Assembly (NCBI GenBank): GCA_027482185.1
Contig: JAIXWF010000013.1
Span: 682,001-746,000, forward strand
From: Opitutaceae bacterium
GTDB lineage: Bacteria; Verrucomicrobiota; Verrucomicrobiia; Opitutales; Opitutaceae
Direction: 5' to 3'
Length of the DNA stretch: 64,000 bases
The translations under genes and the position numbers were made by a program. A model generated the notes under the pieces. That model made no database searches, was not told the DNA's origin, and saw only the letters and a program-made list of their open reading frames with translations. Shown here in pieces: positions 56,979 through 64,000 of this stretch (its first letter is position 1; each line of letters opens with the position of its first letter).

Positions 56979-57261
56979 CGGAGGCGATTGCCGGTGAAGA
57001 GAGGGGGCTTGCCGGTCCGGGCGTTGGGCGGGGAACCGTTCGCATCCGCACCTTGCCCGGGGTTTGGCCGGCGGCGAGGGCGGCGACGCCGGAGGCGAGC
57101 GGGCCCAAAGCGGAGCGGCGGGGAAGCGGGGCGGAGGCCTTGCGGGCTGTAAAGGGACGGCGAGCTGCAGCGTAACAGTCGGTCGGACGGAAGTTTCCAG
57201 ATGAACGACCTTTCATTTCCCGTTCAAGTGGGGTTCATCATTCGGGCTTAGTCTTGAGCCC
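56979..57261. other. Gap of 283 bases before the redox gene cluster
   Basis: No gene is seen. The last 60 bases are less GC-rich (TTTCATTTCCCGTTCAAG, then TTCATCATTCGGG) and probably carry the promoter of the cluster that starts at 57262. A GGGCT/AGCCC inverted repeat (57244-57261) abuts the YceI start codon. Confidence 0.5.
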
Positions 57262-57819
57262 ATGATCGCACGCCTTCTGTTTTCGCTCGCCCTCGGTTTG
57301 GCCGCGGCGGGCAGCGCGCCCGCCGCCGAGCGGCCGCTCGCCATTGATACCGCCCAGTCGCGGGTCGATATCGTCGTCAAAGCCTCGATGGATTCGTTCA
57401 CGGGCCAGCTCAACCGCTACGACGCCGTGTTGACCGCGGATGCAGAGGGCAAGATCGCCGGTTTCCGGCTCAATTTCCGTTTCCTCGATGTCGTCACCGG
57501 CAAGGAAGGCCGCGACAAGGCCATGCACAAATGGCAGGAGACGGACAAGTTTCCCGACGGTTCCTTTGTGCTGGTCACGCTGAAGCCCATCGAGGGCGGC
57601 GGGTACACCGCGATCGGCCGGCTGACGTTTCACGGCGTGACGCGCGACCTGCAGTTTCCGGTCACGATCGCGCGCGACGGTGCCCGCTACGCGATCGACG
57701 GCGATGCCGCCCTCGACACGCGGGAGTTCGGGCTGCCGGTCATCCGCATGCTCGCGCTGCTGAAGGTCGATCCGATCGTCCACGTGCGTTTCCACCTCCA
57801 GGCCCAGCCGGCTTCCTGA
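57262..57819 (+). CDS. YceI-family isoprenoid-binding protein
   Basis: The 185-residue periplasmic protein has a signal peptide (ARLLFSLALGLAAAGSAPAA) and the lipocalin-like YceI barrel (LAIDTAQSRVDIVVKASMDS, FRFLDVVTGKEGRDKAMHKW, GRLTFHGVTRDLQFPVTI). YceI proteins bind polyprenyl chains or quinone-like isoprenoids. It opens a run of seven packed genes and is followed after 1 base by a polyprenyl diphosphate synthase gene, which makes an isoprenoid ligand likely in this case. Confidence 0.93.
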   Translation: MIARLLFSLALGLAAAGSAPAAERPLAIDTAQSRVDIVVKASMDSFTGQLNRYDAVLTADAEGKIAGFRLNFRFLDVVTGKEGRDKAMHKWQETDKFPDGSFVLVTLKPIEGGGYTAIGRLTFHGVTRDLQFPVTIARDGARYAIDGDAALDTREFGLPVIRMLALLKVDPIVHVRFHLQAQPAS

Positions 57820-57820
57820 C

Positions 57821-58738
57821 ATGGCCGCCTCCGCCTATCTCCACACCCGGCTGGCGTCCGCGTTGGTCCGGTATGCGCCGCGCGGCGCCGCGTTGGAACC
57901 GCACCTGCATGCGGCGCTCGCCCAAGTGGCGGCGCACCCGGGCAAATTGCTGCGGGCGCAACTGGTGCTGGTCGCTGCGGAACAGCACGGCTTGTCCGGT
58001 CCGGCCGCCGAGAAACTGGCCTGCGCGGTGGAGTTCTACCACGCGGCCTCGCTGGTCATCGACGACCTGCCGTGCATGGACGACGCGGTGACGCGGCGCG
58101 GCATGGTCTGCGTGCACCGCCAGCACGGCGATGCGACCGCGATCCTCGCGGCCCTCGGCTACATCAACCGCGCCTACGCCCTCGTCGGCGAGGCCCTGCA
58201 GCGGCAGCCGCAGCGCGTGCGCCGCGAGGCGACCGCGATTCTCGAACGCACCCTCGGCGCCGCCGGCCTCGTCGGCGGCCAGGCCTGGGATCTCGGCTTT
58301 GCGGATACGGACCAATCCGCCCGCACCGTGGGGCGGATCGCCGCGGCCAAGACCGGCGCGCTATTCCAGCTGGCGATTCTTTTGCCCGCCGAGCTGGCGC
58401 GACCCAGCGCGGCCGAACGCCGCGCCCTCATGGCGGTGTGCGTCTACTGGGGACTCCAGTTCCAGATCGCCGACGACCTGCGCGACGTGCTGTGCACGAG
58501 TGTGCAGGAGGGCAAGACGACGGGGCGCGACCGGCTGCTGGCGCGGCCGAATTTCGCGCTCGCCGCCGGCGTGCCCGCCGCGCGTTCGCGGCTCGAACGG
58601 CTCGCCCGCCAGTCGGCCCGTGCGCTCGACGTTTTGGCGGCGAGCGGCGCCGGCCGCTGGGATTACCTGCAGGCTTTCCATGCCGCGATTTCGCCGGCGT
58701 TGACGATTCCGGCCGACGCCGTCAGCGCGGCCGCCTGA
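57821..58738 (+). CDS. Polyprenyl (trans-isoprenyl) diphosphate synthase
   Basis: The 305-residue protein has the first aspartate-rich motif DDLPCMDD (81-88), the second aspartate-rich motif DDLRD (218-222), AAKTGALFQLA (Lys177) and VHRQHGDATAILAALGY. The usual GKxxRP site for the diphosphate is GKLLRA (41-46). The length fits a farnesyl/geranylgeranyl-type enzyme that condenses isopentenyl diphosphate in the cytoplasm. It lies 1 base after the YceI stop and 19 bases before the ABC permease, so it probably supplies an isoprenoid used by this cluster. Confidence 0.93.
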   Translation: MAASAYLHTRLASALVRYAPRGAALEPHLHAALAQVAAHPGKLLRAQLVLVAAEQHGLSGPAAEKLACAVEFYHAASLVIDDLPCMDDAVTRRGMVCVHRQHGDATAILAALGYINRAYALVGEALQRQPQRVRREATAILERTLGAAGLVGGQAWDLGFADTDQSARTVGRIAAAKTGALFQLAILLPAELARPSAAERRALMAVCVYWGLQFQIADDLRDVLCTSVQEGKTTGRDRLLARPNFALAAGVPAARSRLERLARQSARALDVLAASGAGRWDYLQAFHAAISPALTIPADAVSAAA

Positions 58739-58757
58739 CCGGGCGCCGACTTCGCGC

Positions 58758-59870
58758 ATGCAAATCCTCTCCTTGGTTTTCACGAACCTGCGCCGGCACC
58801 GTTGGCGGGCCCTGATCGGGACCGCCGGCATCAGTTTCGGCGTGGCAGCGATGCTGACGATTCTGGCGATCGTGACAGGCGCCATCGGCATGTTCCAACG
58901 CATCCTGTCGAGCGACAGCCACTACCTGGTCTTCGAGCGCAACGTCTCGGACCTGTTCTTCAGTTCCGTCACCCGCGACCAGGTCGAGGCGATCCGGGCA
59001 CGGCCGGAAGTCGAATCGGCGAACCCGGTGCTGTTCGGCATCGTGTCCGCGCCGGACCATCCGGTGATCACGTGCTTCGGCATCGAAAAAACGGATCCGC
59101 GGCTGGCGAAAGCGGATTGGCGCGCCGGCAAGCCCGCGGACTTCGGGGCGCGGGAAGGGGAAATCTTCCTTGGGTCGCGCGCGGCGGAATTCCTCAAGGC
59201 GGCGGCCGGCGACACGGTCGAGATCGGCCGCGGCAAATTCAAAGTCGGCGGCATCTTCAAAACGGAAAACGGCTTCGAGGACGGCGGCGTTTTCCTGCCG
59301 CTCGCGGTCGCGCAGGAGTTTTTCCACCGCGGCAACGCGGCGTCGGTGGTGACGGTGAAGTTGAAAAACCAGAACGACGGCCCTGCGTTCAAGGGCGGCA
59401 TCGAGGGCGCGCAGCCCGGCGTGATCGCGTTGGAAAACCGGGAATTCAATTCGACCTACAACAGCTTCAAGATTCTCAACTTCACCGCGTGGGCCGTCGG
59501 TATCTGCGCTTTCTGCCTCGGCGGCCTGGGCGTCGCCAACACGATGCTGCTCTCCGTCTTCACGCGCATCCGCGAGATCGCGGTGCTGCGCGTCTGCGGA
59601 TTCTCGCGGCCGCAGGTGGCGGCGTTGATTTTCGGCGAAGCCGCGGCGGTGGCGGCGGTCGGCGTGGTCGTCGGCCTCGCGATCGGCTACGCGCTGCTCG
59701 CGGTGCTGCAGCAGGTGCCGCAGTTCCAGGGTTACGTGCAGGCGGTGGTCGAGCCGCTCGTGCTGGCCGGCATCGTCGTGACGGCCTTCGTGACGGCGGC
59801 GGCGGGCGCGATTTATCCGGCGCGGTTTGCGTCGCGGATCGAACCGGCGGAGGCGCTGCGCTATGAGTGA
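58758..59870 (+). CDS. ABC transporter permease of FtsX/MacB/LolC type
   Basis: The 370-residue protein has one N-terminal helix (GTAGISFGVAAMLTILAIVT), a periplasmic domain (about 50-235) and three C-terminal helices (ILNFTAWAVGICAFCLGGLG and following), as in MacB and LolC/E. The EIAVLRVCGFSRPQVAALIF coupling helix contacts the ATPase. Such transporters move lipids or lipoproteins, or drive envelope machines, instead of pulling substrate through the membrane. Its stop overlaps the ATPase start by 8 bases. Confidence 0.92.
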   Translation: MQILSLVFTNLRRHRWRALIGTAGISFGVAAMLTILAIVTGAIGMFQRILSSDSHYLVFERNVSDLFFSSVTRDQVEAIRARPEVESANPVLFGIVSAPDHPVITCFGIEKTDPRLAKADWRAGKPADFGAREGEIFLGSRAAEFLKAAAGDTVEIGRGKFKVGGIFKTENGFEDGGVFLPLAVAQEFFHRGNAASVVTVKLKNQNDGPAFKGGIEGAQPGVIALENREFNSTYNSFKILNFTAWAVGICAFCLGGLGVANTMLLSVFTRIREIAVLRVCGFSRPQVAALIFGEAAAVAAVGVVVGLAIGYALLAVLQQVPQFQGYVQAVVEPLVLAGIVVTAFVTAAAGAIYPARFASRIEPAEALRYE

Positions 59871-60546
59871 TCCGCGCGCGATTCTGGCGACGGCCACCGG
59901 GGTGACGAAGAGCTTCGACGGGGGCCGCATCACGGTGCTGCGCGACGTGAGTTTCTCGGTGCGCGCCGGCGAACTGGTGGCGCTGTGGGGTGCGTCCGGT
60001 TCCGGCAAGAGCACGCTGTTGCACCTGCTCGGCGGGCTCGACGTGCCGGACCGCGGCGAGCTGAAGGTGTGCGATCTCGATCCGCGGCAGGAGGCGGACC
60101 GGCTCACGCTGCGGCGGCACCGGCTCGGGTTCATTTTCCAGCTGCACAATCTGATTCCCGACCTGACGGTGGAGGAAAACCTGCGCATTCCGGCGCTCGC
60201 GGTCGGCCGGCCGGCGCCGGAGACGGCGGCGCGCGTGCGCGAGCTGGCGGCCAAGGTCGGCCTCGGGCACCGGCTGGCGCACCGCATCCAGGATTTGTCC
60301 GGCGGCGAACGGCAGCGCACCGCGATTTGCCGCGCGCTGATGAATTCCCCGCAGCTGCTGCTGGCCGACGAACCGACGGGCTCGCTCGACGAGACGACGG
60401 GCCAGACCGTTTTCAACCTGCTCAAGGAATTGGCCGAGCGCGAAAAGATCGCGGTGGTGCTGGCGACCCACGAGCGGCGTTTCGCGGAAGCCTGCCACCG
60501 GATCGTGCGCGTGCGCGACGGCCGGCTCGACGAGATCGCGGAATGA
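59863..60546 (+). CDS. ABC transporter ATPase of LolD/MacB type
   Basis: The 227-residue protein has Walker A GASGSGKST, Q-loop FIFQLHNLIPDL, signature LSGGERQR, Walker B LLLADEPTGSLD and H-loop ATHE, so all catalytic parts are present. The FQxxNLIPxLTVEEN stretch is typical of LolD/FtsE-like ATPases. It pairs with the permease just upstream. The ATG overlaps the permease stop (8 bases), and its own stop overlaps the next gene (ATGA). Confidence 0.95.
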   Translation: MSDPRAILATATGVTKSFDGGRITVLRDVSFSVRAGELVALWGASGSGKSTLLHLLGGLDVPDRGELKVCDLDPRQEADRLTLRRHRLGFIFQLHNLIPDLTVEENLRIPALAVGRPAPETAARVRELAAKVGLGHRLAHRIQDLSGGERQRTAICRALMNSPQLLLADEPTGSLDETTGQTVFNLLKELAEREKIAVVLATHERRFAEACHRIVRVRDGRLDEIAE

Positions 60547-61784
60547 ACGGGCGGGCACCGGACGGCGCGGTCCCGTATGCGCGGGTCGTGACGGGGTACT
60601 GCCTCGGCTGGTTGGTCGCGGCCAACGCCGTCGGTCTTTGGCTCGGCGTCGTGCTGCTGTGGCCGGCGGCGGGCGACGCGCTCGCGCCGTTCACCTTCGG
60701 GCGCTGGGCGCCGCTGCACCTGAATTGGCAATTGTACGGCTGGTGCGCGCTGCCGTTGGTCGGCGCGCTGCTGGCGTGGTGCTTCGATCCGCGGCATCCG
60801 CAGGTGCGGTGGCACGCGCACGCGGCGTTCGGCGCCTGGTCGCTCGCGCTGCTGCTGGGCGGCGCCGGTTGGCTCGGCGGCACGACGAGCGGGAAACTGT
60901 TTCTCGACTGGCACGGCTGGACGCGGCCGCTGCTGCCCGGCGCGATGCACGTGCTGTGGGCGTTGCTCGCGGCGCACACGTGGTGGCGTTGGCGCGGGCT
61001 CGGCAACGGGGGCCGCGCGGCGCGGGTGGCGGCGCTGGCGATGCTGCTCGCGGTGCCGACGGTGCTGCATTGGTCGGCGGGCCGCGAAGTCTACCCGGCG
61101 GTGAATCCCGACAGCGGCGGGGCGACGGGTGCGGCCTTGCTCGGATCGACGCTCGGCCTGGTGACGATTTTTCTCCTGCTGCCGGCGTTTCTCGGCGTCG
61201 GCGGGCACCGCGCGTGGCGAACGACGGCCGCGGCGCTGGCGGCATCGTGGGGCGTGTTTGCCGCGATCGACCACGGCCATGCCTCGCACCATGCGTGGGG
61301 CCAGATTGCCGGGCTGGGATCGTTGCTGGTCTGGACGGTGTGGCTGCCCTGGTTCTGGCTCGGGCATGCGTGGCCCGACGGCGTGCGTCCGTGGCTGCGG
61401 GCGGCGATCGTCTGGTGGGCGTTGCTGGTGGCGTCGGGGTGGGTGACGTTTCTGCCCGGCGTGTCGGAAGCGTGGAAGTTCACGCACTCGCTGGTCGGTC
61501 ATGCGCACCTGGCGATGGCCGGCTTGGTGACGAGTTTGAACGCGGTGATTTTGATCGTGCTGTCGCGTCGGCCGGCGCCCCGCGGCGTGTGGGCCGGTTG
61601 GCAGGCGGGCTGCGCGGTCTTCGTGGCGGCGATGCTCGGGCTCGGGGCCGCGGAGGCGGAGCGGGCCGGGGAGCTGTTCCGCAGCGCACCGTGGACGCAG
61701 GCGTTGCTGGCCCTGCGGCTCGCCGGCGGGGCGGCGATGGCGTTGGCTTCTTTCCATTGGTGGAACGAGAATCGCAAAGCATGA
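60543..61784 (+). CDS. CcoN-like heme-copper oxidase subunit I homologue lacking CuB ligands
   Basis: The 413-residue membrane protein has about twelve helices. It shows a CcoN-like outline: helix II LHLNWQLYGWCALPLVG with His59, a helix VI counterpart SGGATGAALLGSTLGLV, a helix VII counterpart IDHGHASHHAWGQ with VWLPWFW, and helix X FTHSLVGHAHLAMAG with His320 and His322. Low-spin haem ligands therefore appear kept. The helix VI GHN becomes GGA and the HH pair becomes Asp243-His244, so the CuB site looks incomplete. It probably binds haem b and moves electrons without reducing oxygen. The next gene overlaps it by 4 bases. Confidence 0.7.
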   Translation: MNGRAPDGAVPYARVVTGYCLGWLVAANAVGLWLGVVLLWPAAGDALAPFTFGRWAPLHLNWQLYGWCALPLVGALLAWCFDPRHPQVRWHAHAAFGAWSLALLLGGAGWLGGTTSGKLFLDWHGWTRPLLPGAMHVLWALLAAHTWWRWRGLGNGGRAARVAALAMLLAVPTVLHWSAGREVYPAVNPDSGGATGAALLGSTLGLVTIFLLLPAFLGVGGHRAWRTTAAALAASWGVFAAIDHGHASHHAWGQIAGLGSLLVWTVWLPWFWLGHAWPDGVRPWLRAAIVWWALLVASGWVTFLPGVSEAWKFTHSLVGHAHLAMAGLVTSLNAVILIVLSRRPAPRGVWAGWQAGCAVFVAAMLGLGAAEAERAGELFRSAPWTQALLALRLAGGAAMALASFHWWNENRKA

Positions 61785-62185
61785 AAACGGAGACGACGGA
61801 CCGGTGGGCGCGATGGCTGGCGTTGGGCGCCGGCGCGATGGATTTTTCGACGGGGCTCGGCTTGGTGCTGCTGCCGGCGTTCGCGCTCGGGCTGATGCAG
61901 GTCCCGGTGCCGGGCGCGGAGGCGCTGGCCTACGTGCGGTTCACCGGGGTGTTTGTCGGCGCGGTGGGGGCGAGCTACCTGTGGGCCCTGCGGGCGGGCA
62001 CGGCTACGCTGCGGACGGTGTTTCAGGTGACGCTGATTTTCCGCGGCGGGGCCGGCACGTTCACGGGGGTCGGGGTGGCGGCGGGAATGTTCCATCCCAT
62101 GTGGCTGGCGGTGACGTTCACCGACCTGGGCCTGGTGGCGGCGCAGAGCTGGCTGTTGCGGAAAGGATTCGGACGCGATGCGTGA
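61781..62185 (+). CDS. Small four-helix membrane protein (134 aa)
   Basis: The protein starts MKTETTDRWARWLALGAGAM and has four hydrophobic helices, among them FSTGLGLVLLPAFALGLMQV and VGAVGASYLWAL. The family is not recognised. It overlaps its upstream neighbour (ATGA) and its downstream neighbour (8 bases), so it is probably a subunit of the same membrane complex. No haem ligand pattern is obvious. Confidence 0.85.
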   Translation: MKTETTDRWARWLALGAGAMDFSTGLGLVLLPAFALGLMQVPVPGAEALAYVRFTGVFVGAVGASYLWALRAGTATLRTVFQVTLIFRGGAGTFTGVGVAAGMFHPMWLAVTFTDLGLVAAQSWLLRKGFGRDA

Positions 62186-64000
62186 GGCGGATCCGCAAGC
62201 GTCGGTCGGTTCGTGGTGGAGTGCGGTCGCGGCCATCGCGGCGACGTACGTCTATTTTCTGATTTTTGCGGAGTTCGCGTTCATCGAATTGGCGCGCACG
62301 GCGGCGCCGACGACGCCGGAACTGCGGCAACTCATGACCGGCCTCGGGGCCGGCGGCGTGGTGGGCGCGGCGGGGGCGGTGTGGTGGCTGCGGCGGATCG
62401 AACGCCGTCGGCTGCTGGCGATCTGCTTCGGCGGCTGCGCGGCGGCGGCGGGGCTGGCGGCCGCGGTCGGCGCGAAAGCCGGCTACGCGGCGGCGGCGGC
62501 GGCGGTGGGGTTGGCCCTCGGCGGACTGACCGTGACGCTGAGCACGTGCCTGCGGGCCGCGACGGCCGGGCGCGGCCTCGGGCTGGCGATCGGGCTCGGC
62601 ACGGGCGCGGCGTACGCGTTGTGCAACGTGCCCGCGGTGTTTGCGGCGAGCCCGCGGGCGCAGACCCTCGGCGCGGCGGTCGTGGCTTTGGCGGCGATGG
62701 TGCTGCCGCGCGGGCTGCGGACCGAAACGGCGCCGGCGACGGCGTCTCCGGATTCCGAGTACACCCGGGCCGGCACGATCCGTTGGGTCGCGGTGCTGCT
62801 GGCGCTCGTGTGGATGGACTCGGCGGCATTCTACATCATCCAGCATGCGCCGGACCTGAAGTCGGCGACGTGGGCGGGGGCGACGGCGCTCTGGGGCAAC
62901 GCCGGGATGCACCTCGGTGCGGCGGTGGCGGCGGGATGGTTGCTGGATCGAGGCGGCCGCGGGGCCTTGGCGGGCGCGGCCGTGGTCGCGTTGGCGTTGG
63001 CCTGCCTGACGCTGGGCGGGCATTTGCCGGGGACGGTGCCGGCGCGCTGGTTCTACACCGCGGGAGTTTCGTTTTATTCGGTGGTGCTGGTCGAGTATCC
63101 GGCGCGGCGGGCGCGGGCCGGATTGGCGGCGCTGGTGTTTGCGGTCGCGGGTTGGATCGGATCCGCGCTGGGCATCGGCATGGCGCAGGATCTGGCGCAG
63201 GTGCCGCCGGCGTTCGTGGCGATCGCGGTCGCGGCGGTGGCGGCGGCCTTGGGGTGGCGCGGGCGGGTGCGGCCCGCGGCGGCGGGGCTGGCGGCGGCGC
63301 TGCTGTTCGCCGGCGACAGCCGCGGGGCGGAGGCCGATCCGCTCGTCGCGCGGGGGCGCGAAGTCTACATCGCGGAGGGCTGCATCCATTGCCATTCGCA
63401 GTACGTGCGGCCGAAGGTCGCGGCGGACGTCGTGAACTGGGGGCCGGCGCCGACGTTTGCGGCCGGTACGGGCGGCTTGCCGCCGTTGCTGGGCAACCGG
63501 CGGCAGGGACCGGACCTGACCAACGTCGGCAACCGGCGTTCGCCCGAGTGGAACCGGCTCCATCTCATCACGCCGCGGGCCGTTTCCCCCGGATCGCGGA
63601 TGCCGGCCTACGCGCACCTGTTCCGCGAAGGCGACGGCCGCGGCGAGGCGTTGGTCGCCTACTTGGCCTCGCTGGGGGCGGAGACCCAGGCGGAGCGGCA
63701 GACGCAGATCGCCGCGTGGCGGCCGGCGGCGCGGGAAGCGCTGGCGGCGCCCGCGGCGGCGGCGTTGTTCCGGCAGCTTTGCGCGCCCTGCCACGGGCCG
63801 GACGGGCGCGGCGACGGGCCGGTCGCGGGGCGGCTCAGTCTGCGGCCCGGCGATTGGCGAACCGGGCCGTGGCGCCATGTGCCGGCCGGGGCGGAGCCGG
63901 AGCCGGTGCTCGCGCGGATCATCAAGTTCGGTCTGACCGGCCTGCCGATGGCGGGGCACGAGTATTTGCGCGACGCGGAGATCGTTGGGCTCGCGCGGCA
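62178..64000 (+). CDS. MFS-like membrane domain fused to CcoO-like cytochrome c and a second haem c domain, partial
   Basis: The frame is open for 607 codons to the right edge. Residues about 14-360 form roughly twelve hydrophobic helices in an MFS-like layout (AVAAIAATYVYFLIFAEFAF, IRWVAVLLALVWMDSAAFYI, DSAAFYIIQHAPDLK). A further helix at about 378-392 anchors a periplasmic CcoO-like domain: YIAEGCIHCHSQYVRP with haem Cys402, Cys405 and His406, and GPDLTNVGNRRSPEWNRLHL followed by RMPAYAHL. A second CAPCH haem site is at Cys535, Cys538 and His539 (CHGPDGRGDGP). The normal CcoO has a single anchor, so this fusion is unusual. It overlaps the preceding gene by 8 bases. Confidence 0.88.
   Translation, partial: MREADPQASVGSWWSAVAAIAATYVYFLIFAEFAFIELARTAAPTTPELRQLMTGLGAGGVVGAAGAVWWLRRIERRRLLAICFGGCAAAAGLAAAVGAKAGYAAAAAAVGLALGGLTVTLSTCLRAATAGRGLGLAIGLGTGAAYALCNVPAVFAASPRAQTLGAAVVALAAMVLPRGLRTETAPATASPDSEYTRAGTIRWVAVLLALVWMDSAAFYIIQHAPDLKSATWAGATALWGNAGMHLGAAVAAGWLLDRGGRGALAGAAVVALALACLTLGGHLPGTVPARWFYTAGVSFYSVVLVEYPARRARAGLAALVFAVAGWIGSALGIGMAQDLAQVPPAFVAIAVAAVAAALGWRGRVRPAAAGLAAALLFAGDSRGAEADPLVARGREVYIAEGCIHCHSQYVRPKVAADVVNWGPAPTFAAGTGGLPPLLGNRRQGPDLTNVGNRRSPEWNRLHLITPRAVSPGSRMPAYAHLFREGDGRGEALVAYLASLGAETQAERQTQIAAWRPAAREALAAPAAAALFRQLCAPCHGPDGRGDGPVAGRLSLRPGDWRTGPWRHVPAGAEPEPVLARIIKFGLTGLPMAGHEYLRDAEIVGLAR

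Follow-up and report, generated by a model that had tools for sequence, protein, structure and literature searches.

Do the closely spaced genes at the end of this DNA stretch, in which an isoprenoid synthase, an ABC exporter and cytochrome proteins follow each other, constitute a single system, and if so, of what kind? The window examined here (i.e. the whole stretch of 64,000 nucleotides, G000:C3:682001-746000) is from the 6.4 Mb genome, in 24 contigs, of an Opitutaceae bacterium (GCA_027482185.1, contig JAIXWF010000013.1). The first-pass annotation described in it a cluster of seven genes encoding, in order, YceI, a polyprenyl diphosphate synthase, FtsX- and LolD-type ABC proteins, a CcoN-like protein, a small membrane protein and an MFS-CcoO-haem fusion. 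Based on coordinates and family profiles, the place and the order of these seven genes are as described, and so are the two gaps (1 and 19 bases) and the overlaps between the remaining genes of the window; however, the true run consists of nine genes, as a response regulator and a histidine kinase follow, and of its eight junctions only the first two are gaps, with overlaps at the six that follow. The conservation of this cluster and the promoter signal present at many related loci suggest that it represents a cell-envelope redox system not yet described; no account of it was found in the literature searched, most subscription journals lying outside that search.

According to the first-pass annotation, its proposal would fail if the gene order were not conserved in other genomes. 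Among 42 loci examined with family profiles, several of which end at contig ends, all ten features (the MFS and c-haem parts being counted apart) are present in the window order at 14, one of which (L057) has a gene for isopentenyl diphosphate (IPP) isomerase inserted, and the genes for the permease, the ATPase and the CcoN-like protein are consecutive at 36. Because the order is conserved at the former loci and the pump/CcoN-like run at the latter, the arrangement is not due to chance, and across these loci and the 95 genomes searched the genes behave as one conserved, co-occurring unit; on this count the first-pass proposal does not fail. Protein searches of the 95 genomes detected the CcoN-like gene in 21, the source genome included and one match being weak (G083, E 2.9e-4), and the permease at E 1e-60 in 20, which are exactly the 20 strong CcoN-like carriers. 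A sample of 387 genomes from the phylum contains 20 with a match to the CcoN-like alignment at 1e-10, viz. 13 of the same family, 6 of another family of the class and 1 of a further family. A scan of 84,980 species, which used six short peptides from one sequence and hardly covered other phyla, led to 15 named loci, every title being that of a Verrucomicrobia group (Opitutaceae, other Verrucomicrobia, Chthoniobacteraceae, Methylacidiphilaceae and Methylacidimicrobium). At E 1e-5 the CcoN-like protein has no counterpart in plasmid records; the permease is best matched there in Granulicella (29.6%), where an ABC ATPase and a lipoprotein-sorting protein are annotated nearby and no YceI, prenyl synthase or cytochrome is found among the 13 features around it. 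Variation within the conserved unit is also seen: the gene order differs at L043, the MFS and c-haem parts are separate matches at L054-L057, L087 has no pump at the locus, and the genome of L086 carries the permease on another contig.

The CcoN-like protein had earlier been viewed as part of a cbb3-like complex. The label itself is backed by relatives and fold, but the window protein alone gave no Pfam match above cut-off and no NCBIfam match, and COX1 was matched by 13 of the 26 family members at E values up to 10, the best being 1e-10. The fold is of the cbb3/NOR type, as in subunit I (CcoN) of a cbb3 oxidase, with a tie between CcoN and NorB, and upon alignment to CcoN the b-haem His ligands H59, H320 and H322 are present in all 39 proteins. 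However, no further invariant His was found among these 39 aligned proteins, and the three-His set of CuB ligands is thus not seen: a His occupies the helix VI position in 4/39, His249 is kept in 35/39, and this alignment has gaps where the genome's own CcoN carries its CuB ligands. The assignment of ligands is based on two alignments to CcoN, and when the CcoN of the source genome was profile-aligned as a lone sequence, the first two helices only were covered. Interpreted in this manner, the protein is a probable haem b carrier without CuB; to our knowledge, CuB-less proteins of the oxidase family are rare. Because the CuB ligands are lost, an oxygen-reducing cbb3-like complex is not supported, and a standard cbb3 oxidase was rejected on the same ground. 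Other COX1 genes, one of them by eye a CcoN-CcoO fusion, are present elsewhere in the source genome, and the complex of the cluster is thus an addition.

The tie between CcoN and NorB, together with the helix VI His of the four proteins, is also what might be seen in a true but unusual oxidase or nitric oxide (NO) reductase that uses other metal ligands, but neither a CuB nor an FeB ligand set is conserved and this explanation is highly improbable. It is alternatively conceivable that the b haem beside the lost CuB site is open and binds peroxide, NO or another small molecule, which is reduced via the c haems. The invariance of H320, the would-be ligand of the high-spin haem, agrees with such a reductase, in which His249 could also take part; however, a conserved metal-ligand set is lacking and the helix VII stretch is strongly divergent at L081-L086, and a reductase of this kind appears unlikely. 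Separately, the source genome has a further CcoN-type paralog (L105, G000:C16:101667-102797), which by eye has other residues in place of the usual histidines for haem and CuB; COX1 matches of strength similar to L105 occur in other genomes of the genus, and adjacent haem-copper-oxidase-like gene pairs, with a strong and a weak COX1 match, are seen at L100, L101 and L102 (G018:C214, G002:C43 and G012:C304).

A CcoO-like domain is present in all 18 MFS fusions, each of which has two CXXCH motifs (18/18), a count differing from that of a mono-haem CcoO plus a di-haem CcoP. The fusion protein has an MFS fold and, as in the case of the CcoA/CalT copper importers, an MFS protein is here tied to cbb3-type proteins. 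However, it is fused to cytochrome domains, and of MxxxM and HxxxM, which the sections consulted of PMC6362234 give as the CalT/CcoA motifs, the former occurs in 1/18 fusions and the latter in 0/18; a CcoA-type copper importer was rejected due to the absence of these motifs. The same counts bear upon an explanation in terms of metal handling, where the MFS domain would move copper or iron, the haems would give redox help and control would be by a copper-type two-component system. The best matches of the regulator and the kinase are indeed heavy-metal types, and MFS proteins support oxidase assembly in Escherichia coli, according to the consulted portion of PMC10588857. But besides the missing copper motifs, these matches are below cut-off (CopR-type, 204 vs 279 bits, for the regulator; CopS-type, 236 vs 293 bits, for the kinase), QseB (197) and PmrA (186) are almost as near to the regulator, and the isoprenoid genes would be left unexplained, making a role in metal handling quite improbable. 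The small membrane protein gave no family match in profile searches.

The LolD-like ATPase and MacB/LolCE-type permease resemble the LolCDE/MacB class of transporters, which lift lipoproteins or lipids from the inner membrane. However, the cluster has a single permease gene and no LolC/LolE pair, no MacA or LolA gene was recognised in it, and the scores are below the curated cut-offs both for LolD and for lolCE (83 vs 362 bits for the latter); a true LolCDE system was rejected on these scores and on subunit content.

It had further been proposed that the complex needs a special isoprenoid, viz. a quinone or haem side chain. The link to isoprenoids is upheld. The synthase of the cluster is one of three in the source genome and the lowest-scoring of them, among solved structures it is nearest to geranylgeranyl and farnesyl diphosphate synthases, and both Asp-rich motifs are intact, with D81, D82, D87, D218, D219 and D222 invariant where sequence is present in an alignment of 26 rows, one of them a fragment. 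Further, an IPP isomerase is found at two relatives: at L057 it lies between YceI and the synthase (206 bits vs a curated cut-off of 127), and at L051 a protein 52% identical to it is located beyond the kinase, behind its own box. The gene 3' of the cluster at L081 is one which we take to be ispG-like. The quinone or haem side chain, however, did not gain support; family profiles recognised no UbiA- or CtaB-type prenyltransferase among the nine genes. With regard to YceI, the part of PMC5350466 drawn upon here describes proteins of this family crystallised with octaprenyl diphosphate and reports ubiquinone-8 binding for one of them.

The box upstream of YceI, with the pattern ATKAA-N6-TTMAT-N6-TTMA-N7-TTMAT, is the sole match in the window at up to two mismatches, where none is expected. 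In total, 34 matches are present in 27 of the 42 loci, and when the scanned loci were shuffled base by base, three rounds yielded a single match altogether. A TAnnnT element, which was not part of the search pattern, recurs 10 bp past the box, with the A in 33, the first T in 28 and the last T in 30 of the 34 cases. As the start codon of YceI is usually 21-24 bases past the box, its transcript is probably leaderless. The box is found at 18/18 loci with the regulator pair vs 4/17 loci without it (L035, L047, L054 and L090; Fisher p 1.6e-6, relatedness ignored), in a tally omitting 7 loci that end at contig ends, 5 of which have the box; at L081 a more distant regulator pair is situated 6-7 kb away. 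Behind the 34 boxes are 25 YceI genes, 4 sulfatase-family genes (called by Pfam for L053 and L088 and by similarity for L049 and L051), and one each of PAP2 (L040), IPP isomerase (L051), prenyl synthase (L054) and an ArnC-like plus ArnT-like pair (L056); the remaining box (L056:5867), for which no target is assigned, sits between the genes for the regulator and the c-haem protein. Envelope lipids are indicated both by the two-component system and by the promoter, which the first-pass annotation missed because they lie beyond the window or between genes.

If these genes serve the supply of carrier lipid, then the synthase, with or without IPP isomerase, would provide undecaprenyl phosphate to PAP2, Arn-like and sulfatase-family enzymes that remodel the envelope, and the cytochromes would have a stress role of their own within this regulon. 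The occurrence of the box before genes of all these kinds in relatives fits with this, as does the short-chain type of the cluster synthase, which feeds longer chains. However, this would leave unexplained the joint presence of the pump and the CcoN-like gene in 20/20 carriers among the 95 genomes, and also the operon that YceI shares with the cytochromes, and we consider this account somewhat unlikely.

Table 1. Genes and promoter elements of the cluster (window positions, or positions in locus L009 for the last two genes).
Feature	Position	Strand	Evidence or remark
Regulator-type box, four half-sites at 11 bp spacing	57201..57238	+	Pattern search
-10-like element TAnnnT	57249..57254	+	10 bp past the box; 7 bases 5' of YceI start
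YceI-family lipocalin, exported	57262..57819	+	PF04264 66 bits, cut-off 23.7
Short-chain polyprenyl diphosphate synthase, extra copy	57821..58738	+	PF00348 132 bits; gap of 1 after YceI
MacB/LolCE-type (FtsX/MacB) ABC permease	58758..59870	+	MacB_PCD and FtsX domains; gap of 19 after synthase
LolD-like ABC ATPase	59863..60546	+	TIGR02211 220 bits, under cut-off of 308
CcoN-like protein without CuB ligands, probable haem b carrier	60543..61784	+	Relatives and fold
Small membrane protein, 134 aa, conserved	61781..62185	+	
MFS transporter fused to CcoO-like and CcoP-like haem c domains	62178..64000	+	Stop 52 bases past the window
OmpR-type response regulator	L009:10049-10717		Wholly beyond the window; 4-base overlap with neighbour
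Sensor histidine kinase	L009:10714-12066		Wholly beyond the window; 4-base overlap with neighbour

Some other genes are also observed in the vicinity of the cluster. On the minus strand 3' of the kinase (L009:12763-15018) there is a frame of 751 aa which by eye consists of an alpha/beta hydrolase joined to a sulfatase. Proteins of about 160 aa, redoxin-like by eye, recur near the cluster and are often divergent from YceI (L051, L054, L057, L081, L082, L083, L085 and L087); the three members tested gave no Pfam match. A metallo-beta-lactamase-fold hydrolase likewise recurs at L035, L043, L045, L046, L057, L081, L082, L084, L085, L087 and L088. Automatic clustering of other genes was dominated by antisense frames from high-GC genes; it provides leads only.

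The reading which we tentatively prefer, as a possibility short of a probable one, is that the cluster encodes a self-regulated redox module of the envelope; its gene content, conservation, co-occurrence, loss of CuB ligands and promoter are read from sequence. According to this proposal, envelope stress would activate the kinase and the activated regulator would bind the four-site box, starting the leaderless transcript. The extra prenyl synthase would then increase the isoprenoid supply, and the MacB/LolD-type pump would move an isoprenoid lipid, either a quinone or a polyprenyl compound, from the inner membrane to YceI, its presumed carrier in the periplasm. In the CcoN-like protein, the cbb3 core would have been pared down to a relay with haem b, through which electrons pass between this lipid and the c haems carried by the MFS-CcoO-cytochrome c protein, and the relay would keep the lipid in a useful redox state and protect envelope lipids, in the way proposed for cytochrome b561 and the BcnA lipocalin. 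The more specific form of the proposal, in which the CuB-stripped core relays electrons for a lipocalin-carried isoprenoid and also drives or gates the MFS domain via the c haems, within a lipid-remodelling stress regulon, is put forward more tentatively still.

In the BcnA-LcoA system of Burkholderia, as presented in the portion of PMC9113575 considered here, peroxidation of lipids during antibiotic stress is held down by a YceI lipocalin and a cytochrome b561, and the cytochrome is proposed to re-reduce the isoprenoid quinone bound by the lipocalin. The likeness, so far as that portion extends, is that a YceI lipocalin is encoded beside a membrane b-type cytochrome in a setting of envelope stress; however, the cytochrome of the cluster is derived from cbb3 and not b561, and the cluster adds an ABC pump, a prenyl synthase, an MFS-c-haem fusion and a two-component system. 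As no cytochrome b561 domain was recognised by family profiles among the nine genes, it will be incorrect to interpret this comparison as other than functional.

This last result is one of several that weigh against the proposed redox module. L092 and L093 have no pump, small protein or MFS domain at the locus, and the permease was not found at E 1e-40 in the genomes behind L087, L092 and L093. At the locus level, the synthase is absent from L050, L089 and L091 and YceI from L091 and L086. The six f29 loci have no close regulator pair adjoining the cluster, and no box was found at them. Box-linked genes other than YceI occur at one to four loci each, and scores below curated cut-offs were obtained for the L088 sulfatase-family protein (best, weak scores with phosphoglycerol transferases), for its PAP2 protein (best with lipid A phosphatase models) and for the Arn-like pair (best with ArnC and ArnT). 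The reduced clusters of L092 and L093 keep YceI, the synthase, the CcoN-like protein, the c-haem protein and the regulators; as a natural deletion, they mark a core of the cluster.

In comparison with the cbb3 oxidase (CcoNOP), the cluster shares the CcoN fold and haem ligands, a CcoO-like domain and one CcoP-like haem domain, but it differs in the loss of the CuB ligands, in the fusion of the CcoO and CcoP parts behind an MFS transporter and in the inclusion of isoprenoid, pump and regulator genes. Thus, although each of the protein families is known, the cbb3 oxidase, BcnA-LcoA, LolCDE and CalT, as judged from the sequences, each fail in at least one of the defining features tested.

Haem-copper oxidases are known as reductases of O2 and NO. 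If the proposed redox module is real, then the core of an oxidase would have been reused for envelope chemistry, with its haem ligands kept, its CuB lost, and with isoprenoid synthesis, a pump and a lipocalin in its company. Further, the role of YceI, which is unsettled, would be made testable, as a possible ligand maker, pump, carrier, cytochrome and regulator are here found together in one cluster with a defined promoter.

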